Position numbers and translations under genes: made by a program. Shown piece after piece: positions 21,222 to 25,043 of a DNA stretch of 50,664 nucleotides; position 1 is the stretch's first letter, and each line of letters begins with the position of its first letter. Source of the stretch: Bacillaceae bacterium JMAK1 (GTDB taxonomy: Bacteria > Bacillota > Bacilli > Bacillales > Marinococcaceae); NCBI GenBank assembly GCA_012970285.1, contig JIBW01000009.1, positions 1 through 50,664 on the forward strand. Reading direction: 5' to 3'. The notes beneath the pieces are model-generated. The model searched no databases. It was given only the letters and a program-made list of their open reading frames with translations, and was not told where the DNA came from.

Positions 21222-22814
21222 TTGGCTAACTTAAAACGTTATGTCGCTGGCTTTGCAGGAGCCACAGTACTTCTTGCAGGTTGTTCATCAGATCCTGGTG
21301 CAGTTGAAGAAGGAAGCGACGGAGGTACATCAACGGGTAGTGCTGGAGGAGACCAATTTGTGTTAGCGCTCTCTTCAGACATTGTTTCTTTGGATCCGCA
21401 AGAAACAACAGACGTTCCATCATCACAAGTATCGACAAACATTTATGAAAATTTGCTAGAGCACGACAGTAATATGGAACTTCAACCTGTACTTGCAGAA
21501 TCGTACGAAATGGTTGACGATTTAACATGGGAATTCCAAATTCGTGAAGGCGTTACGTTCCATGATGGTGAAGAATTAAATGCAGATGCGGTTGTCAAAA
21601 ACTTTGAGCGTCTGTTAGATCCAGACAACGCGAAACCTCGTGCAAACATGTTTGAATTAGTAGAAGAAATTACAGCAATTGACGAGTATACAGTAGAATT
21701 CACAACGAGTGAACCTTTTGCACCACTTGACGCTCATCTTGCTCATAGCGCAGCAGCGATTATTAGTCCAGCAGCCATTGATGCAGATGAAAGTGGAGAT
21801 GCACTTTTAAGTGTTAATGCAGCAGGTACAGGCTCTTTTGAACTTGACGAATGGGCTCAAGGTAATGAAGTTCGTTTAAGCAAAAATGAAAATTATTGGG
21901 GCGAAGAGGCTCAAGTATCACAAGTAACACTTCGTGTTGTTCCAGAGCAAAGCACGCGTATCGGAATGCTTGACCAAGGGGAAGTACACTTTATTGATCA
22001 AGTAGAATCGGCAAACGCAGGCATTGTTGACGACATGCAAAATGCAAGTCTTCTTACACAAGAACAACTTGGATTTGAATACCTAGGCTTTAACACTGAC
22101 GTTGAGCCATTTGACGATCCTGATGTTCGTCGCGCCATCGCAATGGCCATTGATTCCGAAGTACTTCTTGAAGGTCTTTACGGTGGGTTCGGCTCTGTTG
22201 CAACAGGTCCCTTAAGCGAGTATACATTTGGATATAGCGAAGATACACAAGGTATTGAATACGATCCAGAAGGTGCGAAAGAATTATTAGCAGAAGCGGG
22301 TTACGAAGACGGCTTCTCTGCATCAATTCTTACAAATGACGCAAACCCTACACGTATTCATATTGCAGAAGTTGCTCAAGATTATCTTCAAGACATTGGC
22401 GTAGATCTTTCCATTGAAATGATGGAGTGGGGAGCATTTTTAGATGCTACTGATCAAGGGAATACGGAGATGTTCGTTCTTGGTTGGTCTACAGTAACTG
22501 CTGATGCTGATTATGCTTTGCATCCTAACTTCTATTCTGGAAATCACGGCTCTCAAGGAAACTCAACATTCTACGATAACGAAGAAGTCGACGCATTATT
22601 AACAGAAGCTCGTAGTGAATCTGATAATGAAGCCCGTGCTGATCTTTATGCACAAGCTGAGCAAATCATTATAGATGAAGCTCCAATGGTCTTTACCGTT
22701 CATAATGATTACATCACAGGTATTGCCAACTCTGTAGAAAACTTTAATCACTTAGCTACAGGTATTTATGACCTAAGTGAAGTTTCAATCAACGAAGAAG
22801 AAGCAGGATATTAA
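21222..22814 (+). CDS. Oligopeptide-type ABC transporter substrate-binding lipoprotein
   Basis: The 530-residue protein starts with a lipoprotein signal (hydrophobic run, lipobox LLAGC, lipidated Cys 21). A family 5 extracellular solute-binding domain follows, with the signature region ESYEMVDDLTWEFQIREGVTFHDGE split around residues 90-115. The mature protein is markedly acidic. It should bind peptides, nickel or other small ligands outside the membrane, but no permease or ATPase genes are nearby. The start is TTG at 21222 behind GGGGGA. An ATG at 21215 begins a 4-codon frame instead. It has its own terminator and runs against the flanking operons. Confidence 0.88.
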   Translation: MANLKRYVAGFAGATVLLAGCSSDPGAVEEGSDGGTSTGSAGGDQFVLALSSDIVSLDPQETTDVPSSQVSTNIYENLLEHDSNMELQPVLAESYEMVDDLTWEFQIREGVTFHDGEELNADAVVKNFERLLDPDNAKPRANMFELVEEITAIDEYTVEFTTSEPFAPLDAHLAHSAAAIISPAAIDADESGDALLSVNAAGTGSFELDEWAQGNEVRLSKNENYWGEEAQVSQVTLRVVPEQSTRIGMLDQGEVHFIDQVESANAGIVDDMQNASLLTQEQLGFEYLGFNTDVEPFDDPDVRRAIAMAIDSEVLLEGLYGGFGSVATGPLSEYTFGYSEDTQGIEYDPEGAKELLAEAGYEDGFSASILTNDANPTRIHIAEVAQDYLQDIGVDLSIEMMEWGAFLDATDQGNTEMFVLGWSTVTADADYALHPNFYSGNHGSQGNSTFYDNEEVDALLTEARSESDNEARADLYAQAEQIIIDEAPMVFTVHNDYITGIANSVENFNHLATGIYDLSEVSINEEEAGY

Positions 22815-22827
22815 GTCCGAGTTTTCG

Positions 22828-22860
22828 ACCCATCTGTACTTTTGTATAGATGGGTTTATT
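22828..22860 (+). terminator. Terminator of the substrate-binding protein gene
   Basis: ACCCATCT, a loop and AGATGGGT (22828-22855) are followed by TTATT. It lies 13 bases after the stop codon. Its tail touches the -35 of the next promoter. Confidence 0.8.
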
Positions 22861-22887
22861 GTGTTCTTTCGAACACTCCGATATAAT
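22859..22887 (+). promoter_or_regulatory. Promoter of the MFS gene
   Basis: -10 TATAAT (22882-22887) is perfect. A -35 TTGTGT (22859-22864, four of six consensus bases) is 17 bases upstream. Transcription would begin near 22894, giving an untranslated leader of about 130 bases before the exporter. Confidence 0.65.
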
Positions 22888-22905
22888 CTGAATAAATAAA
22901 AAACT

Positions 22906-22923
22906 GAGGTGCTTCCAATGTAA
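22906..22923 (+). other. Start-stop mini-ORF 1 (ATG TAA)
   Basis: A Shine-Dalgarno-like GAGGTG (22906-22911) is followed after six bases by ATG TAA (22918-22923), an initiation codon directly followed by a stop. Translated, it would hold a ribosome with initiator tRNA only. It may be a regulatory site or a chance match; a 4-codon GTG frame ending at the same TAA lacks a ribosome-binding site. Confidence 0.4.
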
Positions 22924-22951
22924 ACATCCACCCAACCATTTAGAATTTAAT

Positions 22952-23014
22952 AAAGGAGGTTATCCGATGTGATTCACTCCTTTTCTTCAGTAATCGACTG
23001 ATAAGAAAAGGAGG
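22952..23014 (+). promoter_or_regulatory. Putative translational attenuator of the MFS exporter
   Basis: AAAGGAGGT (22952-22960) precedes ATG TGA (22967-22972) at ideal spacing. Next comes a hairpin: arm CTCCTTTTCTT (22977-22987), inner stem CAGT/ACTG (22988-22991 with 22997-23000) and arm AAGAAAAGGAG (23003-23013). The last arm is the exporter's ribosome-binding site, so the hairpin hides it. The first arm can instead pair with the leader's own AAAGGAG (22952-22958), giving two exclusive structures. This is the layout of erm/cat-type translational attenuation, in which a ribosome stalled on the leader frees the downstream site. Confidence 0.65.
22969..23001 (+). CDS. Possible 10-residue leader peptide of the MFS attenuator
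   Basis: A GTG overlapping the ATG TGA start-stop (spacing of 9 bases from GGAGG) opens a 10-codon frame encoding MIHSFSSVID, followed by TGA and TAA. It runs through the 5' arm of the hairpin and stops in the inner stem, exactly where a stalled ribosome would open the structure. Either the start-stop ATG or this GTG could be used. Coding cannot be proven from one sequence. Confidence 0.4.
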   Translation: MIHSFSSVID

Positions 23015-23025
23015 CTGATGTTTTC

Positions 23026-24219
23026 GTGCATTGGAATTTTGTTTTTTTAGTCGTGGGCAGAGCTTGCCATCAATCGGGATTCGTACTCTTAATCGTTGCT
23101 CTCATGCACATGATTTATGTAGAGACTTCATCCGCATTATTCATGAGCTTAATCCCTGTAACGATTACTTCTGCTCGATTCGGCTCAAACCTCATAGCTC
23201 CGTTACTGTTTGCTCGTTTTTCTTTAACGACAATTCTCATATACGCTACGAGAACAAAAGTCTTACTTCTTGTGCTCGTCTATATTTGCATATTCTATGA
23301 TTTATTGTTTTCGGTCTATATCATTGTCTTTTTTATATCGATGATGGATGCCTGGTTCGACCCGAGCAGTCAAGCGCTTATTCCGAGAATCATTGCCAAG
23401 GAGGAACGCGTTCGTGCAAACAGTACGATCAGCCTCGTTAGTGAGGGTGTTGAATTCATTTGCTGGGCGCTTGGAGGTCTGTTACTTGCGTATGTTCATG
23501 CACCTTTTTTATTCCTACTCGTTGTGCTTAACGCGATCTTTACTGCCCTTTCGTTTTCCTGCTTACATCAACGAACGAAAGGGACGTTCGCGAACGACAG
23601 CACCTCAAAGACTTGGCAAACGGAAATTCGCCGTGGCTTCTCGGTAATGGTCTCGTCTCGGTGGCTTTCGCACGCTATATTGGCGTCATTTCTCACGTCT
23701 TTAGCAAGCGTCGTATGGATTGCAGCTATCACATACCTTTTTGTTGAACAAGTTCTCATGGAGAGTGAAAGCTGGTGGGGATTTTTGAATGCAAGCCTAT
23801 TAGTCGGATTGCTCTTTGCGGGTGTCATGCTAAGAAAGCTTCATTCTCTATTTCAAAAAAATCAATCTAAGACGGTGTTTATAGGGTTGGTTGGCACTGC
23901 AATCGTTACGTTTATATTCGCGTTAACGTTCGAGCCCGCTGTTGCGCTCTTCATCATTGCTTGTCTCGGGTTCTTTTTACAACTCGAGGCAGTCGCTTCA
24001 CATACTTTGTATCAAGAGCGTATAGACATAGACGTTCTTCCTTACGTCTATGCAGCGGAGGGCGCCATTGCCATGTTCGGATTTGCACTAGGATCCTTGC
24101 TCGTCGGCTTGGCCGCAAACCATATACATTTAACGTACATTTACTTGATTTCAGCACTCCTCATCGTATTGGCCAGTATTGTCTGGTTTCGAGCATTTAG
24201 ACAAGAATGGCGAAAATAA
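23026..24219 (+). CDS. MFS transporter, probable drug exporter
   Basis: The 397-residue protein has 10-12 hydrophobic membrane segments and resembles the MFS_3 group (EntS/Mef-like). In that group the region following the fourth helix reads like FDPSSQALIPRIIAKEERVRANS, seen here around residues 108-130 (split for brevity: FDPSSQALIPRI, then RVRANSTISLVSEG). The only usable in-frame start is GTG 23026, 11 bases after GGAGG. An ATG at 23018 starts a 10-codon frame that overlaps it out of frame. The leader suggests control by ribosome stalling, hence a role against a ribosome-targeting compound; that is inference, and the substrate is unknown. Confidence 0.8.
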   Translation: MHWNFVFLVVGRACHQSGFVLLIVALMHMIYVETSSALFMSLIPVTITSARFGSNLIAPLLFARFSLTTILIYATRTKVLLLVLVYICIFYDLLFSVYIIVFFISMMDAWFDPSSQALIPRIIAKEERVRANSTISLVSEGVEFICWALGGLLLAYVHAPFLFLLVVLNAIFTALSFSCLHQRTKGTFANDSTSKTWQTEIRRGFSVMVSSRWLSHAILASFLTSLASVVWIAAITYLFVEQVLMESESWWGFLNASLLVGLLFAGVMLRKLHSLFQKNQSKTVFIGLVGTAIVTFIFALTFEPAVALFIIACLGFFLQLEAVASHTLYQERIDIDVLPYVYAAEGAIAMFGFALGSLLVGLAANHIHLTYIYLISALLIVLASIVWFRAFRQEWRK

Positions 24220-24230
24220 TGGTCACGAAT

Positions 24231-24260
24231 AAAACCCCTTCCAAGGTTGGAGGGGGTTTT
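24231..24260. terminator. Bidirectional terminator between the MFS and GntR genes
   Basis: AAAACCCCTTCC and GGAGGGGGTTTT form a 12-base stem with T runs at both ends, so it can end transcripts from both convergent genes. It overlaps the stop codon of the GntR gene. Confidence 0.85.
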
Positions 24261-24924
24261 ATTCCGATGTAAGCACTTCATGTAAATGATCTAAATCGTG
24301 TTTAAGATGCTTCTTCATCATTGCACTTGCTTTTTGTGCATCTCGTTCTTTTAAGGCTTTAAAGATTTGTCGATGTTCGTCTTGTATATGCGTGGCACGC
24401 CCACGCCCTTCAAAGTTCATCACACGACAGTAGTATATCAGGGCCTCAATTGTACTCAATTGCTTCGCTAAGTATGGGTTGTGACTACATTGAGCTATCT
24501 CTTGGTGGAATTTCTGATTCCAATCAATAATGCGTTCGTCATCGGCTTGATCACGAATAAGCCGATCAACTTCTTCTAGAATATCTGAAACTGCCTCTAA
24601 ATCTTCTTCACTGGCGTGTATGACTGCCAATTCAACGGCCAATACTTCAAGCGCTATTCTAAGCTCATAGATGTGCTCGACGTCGGTTACCGTTAGGGAG
24701 TAGACAACAAATCCAAGTTTCTCATCTGCGACCAGCAAACCATCTTTTTCGAGCAATCGCATTGCTTCACGAATTGGGGAACGACTAATTCCCATTTCTT
24801 TTGATAGTTGACTCTCATTAATTCTGTCACCAGCACGATACGTGCGATCATAGATGCGTTGTTTGATTTCTCGATATAGTTGGAGGTAATATGGAGTCGG
24901 CTTATCAATCTTTGCAGCGCACAT
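24259..24924 (-). CDS. GntR-family transcriptional regulator, FCD (FadR) subfamily
   Basis: The 221-residue protein has an N-terminal winged helix (YREIKQRIYDRTYRAGDRI, then SQLSKEMGISRSPIREAMRL; residues about 15-70). An all-helical FCD ligand domain follows, with metal-binding candidates in DWNQKFHQEIA (Asp, His) and later histidines. Such regulators usually bind carboxylic acids and control a neighbouring catabolic operon, but none is next to it. Its target could be the adjacent exporter or lipoprotein gene. ATG 24924 has AGGTG six bases upstream; a GTG at 24933 is an alternative start. Confidence 0.85.
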   Translation of the reverse strand: MCAAKIDKPTPYYLQLYREIKQRIYDRTYRAGDRINESQLSKEMGISRSPIREAMRLLEKDGLLVADEKLGFVVYSLTVTDVEHIYELRIALEVLAVELAVIHASEEDLEAVSDILEEVDRLIRDQADDERIIDWNQKFHQEIAQCSHNPYLAKQLSTIEALIYYCRVMNFEGRGRATHIQDEHRQIFKALKERDAQKASAMMKKHLKHDLDHLHEVLTSE

Positions 24925-25043
24925 GTCATTCACCTATCTTTCAATCGATCGACAATGCTTCAAGTCCGTTTGTTCATCCCAATGATAACGCTACGTATTA
25001 TTTACGTTTAAATCTACAAAAACCGGGAAAAGGTTCTTTAACG

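Follow-up and report, generated by a model that had tools for sequence, protein, structure and literature searches.

The leader of a putative exporter gene of the major facilitator superfamily (MFS) in Bacillaceae bacterium JMAK1 is likely to be a translational attenuator that senses through a one-codon start-stop open reading frame (ORF), in which the stop codon comes immediately after the start codon, rather than through a leader peptide. The gene lies in a 50,664-nucleotide stretch of DNA (assembly GCA_012970285.1, contig JIBW01000009.1, positions 1 to 50,664), the whole of which was analysed and is here called the window. Comparison of the leader with those of related genes suggests that the switch probably senses ribosomes held at start or stop codons, since an ORF of one codon has nothing to elongate and only delay at initiation or termination can be sensed. 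An earlier note on this DNA had proposed a translational attenuator with a stem that sequesters the Shine-Dalgarno sequence (SD) of the exporter, working by the logic of the erm and cat attenuators through a 10-codon leader peptide, MIHSFSSVID. The attenuator and its stem are supported by conservation and covariation; the leader-peptide logic is not. As that note had supposed, we infer induction by a ribosome inhibitor.

The leader is about 130 nt long. Its putative promoter, the strong leader SD AAAGGAGG, the AUG-UGA and the perfect 11-base stem with four further pairs, whose 3' arm overlaps the exporter SD, are all present as the earlier note described them (Table 1). A second, upstream start-stop at 22918 and a lower stem are additional to these elements. 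At 22918 and at 22967 a start codon with an initiation signal is followed immediately by a stop codon, the features by which we define a start-stop regulator, and each has an SD of its own, as the upstream ORF of an attenuator should (energies in Table 1). A multi-codon leader peptide with a conserved arrest sequence, also expected of a classical attenuator, was not found: the conserved ORF is a single codon. An AUG-UAA equivalent to start-stop 1 occupies the same position in the congener leaders L002 and L003, where the SD of the L003 copy falls short of the -7 threshold used below, and the leader L004, from the window's genus, has two start-stops as well. The putative promoter went unlisted in a consensus promoter scan because its -35 element matches at only three of six positions.

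Start-stop ORFs recur upstream of related exporter genes. A protein search of 150 related genomes, with one match per genome, supplied the best 30 loci (window included), and a 17-row profile run against 398 genomes of the class supplied another 30. The leaders of these loci, duplicates included, and 119 further stretches, of which 20 were controls from more distant MFS genes, were scanned by script and largely also by eye (L134 to L147 by script alone; L051, L052, L055, L177, L059 and L065 duplicate other loci). The strict script accepts a start-stop that lies between -100 and -35 and has an SD energy no weaker than -7. By this standard 66 of the 151 family leaders (window included) carry a start-stop, whereas 20 dinucleotide shuffles averaged 2.35 and never exceeded 4. 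In this count L010, whose flank, like that of L067, is cut short by the contig end, is scored as a miss, and L067 and L078, with no start called, are left out; the exporter start of L004 was miscalled by the script. One of the 20 control genes has a start-stop (Fisher 4.6e-4 against the family, with relatives treated as independent). Among the 30 best homologue loci, window included, 27 have a start-stop with an SD, and 29 do under looser limits, which recover those of L004 and L010; in L027 the single start-stop lies at -107. Across the whole set, the looser limits give 79 of 153 family leaders and again one of 20 controls.

The window's own genome provides a second background. Of 740 SD-called genes in 0.85 Mb, 13 (1.8%) show a start-stop behind an SD between -100 and -35, of which three lie within other frames, and the family frequency exceeds this by a wide margin (66 of 151 leaders against 12 of 739 other genes; Fisher 9e-45, relatives treated as independent). 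Among the 13, the window's gene is alone in having CC at -3,-2 of the start-stop and has the strongest arm pairing, at -15.5 against -10.6 kcal/mol for the next. The start-stops lie a median of 57 nt before the exporter start (-57). The start codon of the 66 start-stops is AUG in 47, GUG in 11 and UUG in 8, and the stop codon is UAA in 32, UGA in 25 and UAG in 9.

These stop codons bear directly on what is conserved. If the leader worked as an erm- or cat-type attenuator, a drug-bound ribosome would be arrested inside the 10-codon GUG ORF that overlaps the AUG-UGA. That ORF has a good SD score (-15.5), and two congeners have similar GUG ORFs (VNHSFSSVNN). It also encodes the 5' arm of the hairpin, however, a constraint that can account for the ORF being kept within the genus, and at AUGUGA sites in other relatives the overlapping GUG ORFs are unrelated in sequence and range from 4 to 43 codons. 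Where the stop is UAA or UAG (32 + 9 of the 66) such an ORF is impossible and the one-codon ORF is still kept, so the start-stop is the conserved element and not the peptide. We therefore regard arrest within MIHSFSSVID as highly improbable.

The second conserved property is the hairpin over the exporter SD. In the window it comprises 15 pairs, 11 between 22977-22987 and 23003-23013 and four between CAGT and ACTG (22988-22991 and 22997-23000); in the minimum-energy fold these strands form 10 + 5 pairs and leave a bulge of 2 nt. Folding of 22894-23060, which the earlier note had suggested as a check, gives -42.4 kcal/mol against a shuffle mean of -32.9 (z -2.43), with 3 of 200 shuffles equally good. 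In the minimum-energy fold, the lower stem pairs the region of start-stop 1 with the first exporter codons. The note had also pointed out that AAAGGAG in the leader SD can pair with CTCCTTT in the 5' arm. This complementarity exists, but taken alone it argues weakly for a switch between two states, because a 5' arm able to pair with one SD will also do so with a second.

Table 1 Features of the window and of related leaders.
Feature	Position	Strand	Remarks
putative promoter TTGTGT-17-TATAAT	22859..22887	+	read from the sequence; also in congener leaders L002 and L003
Shine-Dalgarno of start-stop 1, GAGG	22906..22909	+	SD energy -9.3
lower-stem 5' strand TTCCAATG	22913..22920	+	fold; includes AUG of start-stop 1
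start-stop ORF 1, AUG-UAA	22918..22923	+	CC at -3,-2; spacing GAGG-N8-AUG
Shine-Dalgarno of start-stop 2, AAAGGAGG	22952..22959	+	SD energy -13.2
start-stop ORF 2, AUG-UGA	22967..22972	+	CC at -3,-2; AAAGGAGG-N7-AUG; family-wide element
overlapping GUG ORF, MIHSFSSVID	22969..23001	+	10 codons; not kept as a peptide beyond the genus
SD-hairpin 5' arm, CTCCTTTTCTT plus CAGT	22977..22991	+	starts 10 nt after A of start-stop 2
SD-hairpin 3' arm, ACTG, 2-nt bulge, AAGAAAAGGAG	22997..23013	+	fold
exporter Shine-Dalgarno AAAGGAGG	23007..23014	+	sequestered in hairpin (predicted fold)
MFS exporter gene (putative)	23026..24219	+	397 aa, GUG start
lower-stem 3' strand CATTGGAA	23029..23036	+	fold; exporter codons 2-4
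Pro-Ile-stop leaders	L063, L071-L073, L075-L079, L082, L085, L087, L089, L090, L095, L097, L124, L127, L138, L154, L175		L078 by eye

Across the class, the two arms co-vary, as the earlier note had asked to see. In 58 start-stop leaders (class A) that are at most 80% identical, 5' and 3' arms of the same leader pair at a mean of -13.3 kcal/mol and arms of different leaders at -8.8, the best of 2000 permutations reaching -10.1, and 55 of the 58 5' arms are distinct. The first paired base of the 5' arm lies at +6 to +12 from the A of the AUG in 51 of 58 leaders, and the 3' arm overlaps the exporter SD in 56 of 58; both figures are partly set by the search windows (+6 to +29 of the P codon for the 5' arm, which fixes the lowest offset, and -24 to +2 of the exporter start for the 3' arm). 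A test independent of these windows, in which the stretch from start-stop to exporter start was folded, gives the same picture: in all 66 class A leaders a mean of 4.33 of the six exporter SD bases is paired upstream, against 3.22 when the intervening stretch is shuffled (largest of 20 runs 3.62). Fold, SD pairing above shuffles and the cis-trans difference of the arms all indicate an SD-sequestering stem under covariation. Transcription attenuation, with the hairpin acting as a terminator, is an exceedingly improbable account. Attenuation of this kind is described for the antibiotic-inducible vmlR and bmrCD genes of B. subtilis (PMC9226507, PMC4191407), but a terminator scan finds none in this leader, and the 3' arm is the exporter SD rather than part of a stem followed by a U run.

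In some class A leaders (for example L015, L016, L030, L119 and L148) the loop of the SD hairpin contains a recurrent motif like AACTGAATA shortly 5' of the 3' arm. Allowing for degeneracy, it is present in 27 of the 66, a figure that stands without a background count. In L160, L120, L121, L123, L126 and L133 the SD of the start-stop is near-palindromic with a CCTCC that sits right in front of the start codon (GAGGTGCACCTC, GGAGGATCCTCC), possibly a second lock on the sensor itself.

Most of the start-stops share a sequence context that the exporter starts of the same loci lack. CC occupies -3,-2 in 41 of the 66 start-stops and in none of the 66 exporter starts of the same loci; among the exporter starts of all called loci, which include 20 controls and four duplicates, it is found in 2 of 175 (Fisher 8e-17, relatives treated as independent). 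C at -3 alone is present in 80% of the start-stops. As an explanation of the CC, pairing with the SD of the start-stop was rejected, though it may play a part: local folding pairs this C upstream in 33 of 66.

An ORF of four to six codons ending in Pro-Ile-stop takes the place of the start-stop in 21 further leaders (MTISPI, MNSPI, MNRPI, MIRPI, MGPI and others; Table 1); one of these, MRRI, has Arg-Ile at its end, and L162 carries an Arg-Ile-stop relative. In nucleotides, a single base separates GUCCAAUGUAA from GUCCAAUUUAA. This sister class keeps the CC context: of 22 ORFs, 100% have C at -3 and 95% have it at -2. The geometry is similar, the arm offset lying between +6 and +10 in all 19 leaders tested. 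It also has the SD hairpin, with 5.05 SD bases paired against 3.72 after shuffling. In a tree of 58 proteins, the 41 start-stop rows (six of them classed by eye) fall on both sides of the midpoint root, and the Pro-Ile-stop rows group in a single clade, apart from L078, which carries the label 'none' in the tree and is Pro-Ile-stop by eye. The row sister to this clade is a plasmid gene of Lacticaseibacillus, whose branch is long and whose placement is unsure; it has CC-AUG-UAA 135 nt upstream, behind an SD that looks weak by eye. By eye, L071, L078, L085, L087 and L095 show a second hairpin ahead of the Pro-Ile-stop ORF, built as GATAAATC-loop-GATTTATC with some variation; a C run in its loop is complementary to the G-run of the exporter SD, so that loop and SD might make contact.

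The context and the sister class also bear on whether the leader senses anything. A start-stop means frequent, short ribosome occupancy, and start-stop cycling that transiently opens the hairpin, or termination followed by re-initiation, could simply hold the exporter at a fixed low level; termination-reinitiation at AUGUGA and GUGUGA is described in E. coli (PMC9841429). Re-initiation on the overlapping GUG requires UGA, however, and 41 of 66 stops are UAA or UAG, while the exporter start lies about 57 nt from the start-stop. A constitutive device would further leave unexplained both the CC before the start codon and the substitution by Pro-Ile-stop at similar geometry. We consider it rather unlikely.

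We propose instead that the start-stop works as a sensor. Normally a ribosome would initiate on it, terminate at once and leave, after which the hairpin would re-form and the exporter stay off. A ribosome slowed right after initiation or at termination would remain on the start-stop and cover the beginning of the 5' arm; the exporter SD would thereby be freed and the exporter translated, and the exporter would presumably remove the compound that caused the hold. With two start-stops in series, as in the window, the second would face the SD hairpin and the first the lower stem over the exporter start codon. Compounds that can hold ribosomes at start codons include retapamulin, tetracycline and thiostrepton, and etamycin A is reported to prefer an A site occupied by a stop codon or a charged residue (PMC13410324).

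The proposal was modelled by blocking a ribosome footprint from -20 to +16 in folding and computing the probability that the exporter SD is open, P(SD open). In the Pro-Ile-stop class P(SD open) rises from 0.14 to 0.49, with a gain above 0.2 in 14 of 21 leaders, and in the window a ribosome on start-stop 2 raises it from 0.11 to 0.42. Blocking the upstream part of the footprint alone has no effect (0.22 in class A and 0.15 in the sister class).

Several observations weigh against an attenuator with the start-stop as its sensor. In the footprint model, the class A leaders respond modestly, from a mean of 0.21 to 0.36, with a gain above 0.2 in 20 of 66. For the window, a ribosome on start-stop 1 alone moves P(SD open) from 0.11 to 0.14, and occupation of both start-stops gives 0.37, below start-stop 2 alone, so that start-stop 1 has no clear role in freeing the SD in this model. 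The lower stem, identical in the window and two congeners, shows no covariation. RNAalifold found no consensus pair in a MAFFT alignment of 51 leaders, which we attribute to misaligned 3' arms and variable loops. Many family members, mostly distant ones, have no start-stop, and under the strict script 64 of the 151 family leaders belong to neither class; seven of these have a CC start-stop under looser limits, and L066 has one by eye. A close paralogue in the family, L081 (a second copy, ranked 25th in the protein search), has none. The counts and Fisher values treat related loci as independent. Finally, the window's protein is a putative exporter whose role is read from family resemblance that falls below curated cut-offs.

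The CC context points to the E site of the 30S subunit. On this ground the start-stop could be tuned more narrowly, to 30S E-site antibiotics that contact mRNA at -1 to -3, above all an mRNA stabiliser like amicoumacin A: the CC would be the drug-contact motif, and the drug would hold a ribosome on CCN-AUG-stop, or on CCA-AUU-stop in the Pro-Ile-stop class, and would itself be expelled by the exporter. Kasugamycin can stack on base -2 and clashes with -1 and -2, and GE81112 overlaps -1 and -2; the base at -3 apparently stacks on G693 (PMC11903750). Amicoumacin A, a Bacillus product, is described as binding near the E-site codon; it stabilises mRNA, and the 70S initiation complex forms 30-fold more slowly in its presence (PMC7907450). 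We nevertheless judge this narrower version unlikely, because the context dependence of kasugamycin concerns -1, which is variable here, and because edeine, which prevents ribosome binding to mRNA (PMC13410324), keeps ribosomes off the message and so would cause no hold there.

In the known erm, cat and tet(L) attenuators, a multi-codon leader peptide is the sensor and the ribosome is arrested inside the ORF. The leader described here shares with them an upstream ORF with its own SD, a hairpin over the target SD and the expectation that a held ribosome frees it; in contrast, its ORF has one codon, no nascent chain and no elongation. The termination-arrest leaders TnaC and SpeFL require a specific nascent peptide together with a metabolite. 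The Pro-Ile-stop leaders are closer in kind to these, whereas the start-stop has no peptide.

Outside bacteria, the AUG-stop of the plant gene NIP5;1 is not known to have an SD or an SD-sequestering hairpin, and differs further in being eukaryotic and acting through mRNA decay. It is nonetheless among the nearest likenesses, described as a boron-dependent AUG-stop upstream ORF (uORF) in which the AUG directly precedes the stop, a ribosome is held there and a transporter gene is controlled (PMC5972666, PMC11915504). Solute sensing by a start-stop thus has a precedent, and by analogy the window's leader might report metabolic state or termination capacity (release factor, initiator tRNA or a small solute) and control export of a metabolite. 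The mixed use of UAA, UGA and UAG singles out no one release factor, however, and the neighbouring genes look varied by eye in 22 family loci, which leaves such a sensor decidedly improbable.

Start-stop sites have been recorded by ribosome profiling in E. coli and Campylobacter, with potential regulatory functions cited for E. coli (PMC11955535). Like the window's elements, these are bacterial ORFs of very few codons on which ribosomes initiate; the 18 Campylobacter sites have two or three codons and are described as internal and out of frame (PMC11955535), whereas start-stops of the window's type are leader elements with a covarying hairpin and occur class-wide. In the open-access literature no bacterial start-stop attenuator was found among the matches listed, subscription papers lying mostly outside that scope. 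Of the RNA families in Rfam, BtsR1 (RF02888) overlaps the start-stop and hairpin (E 0.087-0.33); at 19.1 bits against a threshold of 66 this candidate link was taken as chance, and 15 related loci gave no match to RF02888. At E 1e-5 the model is silent in all 299 genomes searched, control genomes included, so that its absence is not shown. A start-stop leader pattern allowing one mismatch had 18 matches in four genomes against 7 for the reversed pattern; a search of 150 genomes gave many matches in both orientations. Neither result bears on other gene families.

The exporter itself exceeds the Pfam gathering cut-offs for MFS_1 (47.7 against 33.4) and MFS_3 (41.1 against 27). Its top NCBIfam match, almost full length, is the ryptide export MFS transporter NF041056 (E 5.7e-40), and the H+ antiporter model TIGR00900 (2A0121) also matches almost full length (E 1.2e-30). 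It scores far under both curated cut-offs (137.6 against 575 bits and 107.1 against 319.6 bits) and is a relative of these families rather than a member; the curated cut-off of the macrolide exporter Mef(A) model NF000245 was likewise not reached (29.2 against 675). The window's Bacillales genome is Geomicrobium-like: named relatives of the protein are found in Geomicrobium sp. JCM 19038 (83% identity) and G. sediminis (82%). Upstream of the leader lie a solute-binding-protein gene (21222-22814) and, from the terminator scan, a terminator-like hairpin (22827-22856). Directly downstream, and convergent with the exporter, a GntR/FCD regulator gene (24259-24933, minus strand) shows no sign of involvement.

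In 22 family loci, viewed by eye for their largest frames, the neighbouring reading frames look varied, so that the exporter gene appears to stand alone. Close to one homologue lies a strong SAM riboswitch (L014:578-683, minus strand, 88.1 bits), unrelated to the start-stop leader. The homologue on the Staphylococcus aureus plasmid pPH1-1 (L231) has a start-stop at -65. On the same plasmid (2838-6194) it adjoins two annotated peptide-modification genes with an HEXXH motif and a 42-aa small ORF, which hints at a modified-peptide cluster and that at least one family member exports a modified peptide.

The bacterial drug-sensing attenuators known to us all read a stalled leader peptide. A bare start-stop sensor could report initiation and termination only, steps that several antibiotic classes hit, and the CC rule together with the natural Pro-Ile-stop alternative offers ready tests of what the ribosome senses. 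The default minimum ORF of the search tool uORF4u is nine nucleotides, or three codons (PMC10219788), and start-stop regulatory ORFs could be missed because uORF tools set such a minimum; more generally, a widespread class of regulatory ORFs can escape notice through a limit on ORF length. If the E-site reading were true, the family would represent a whole class of peptide-free sensors of E-site mRNA context, easily overlooked.

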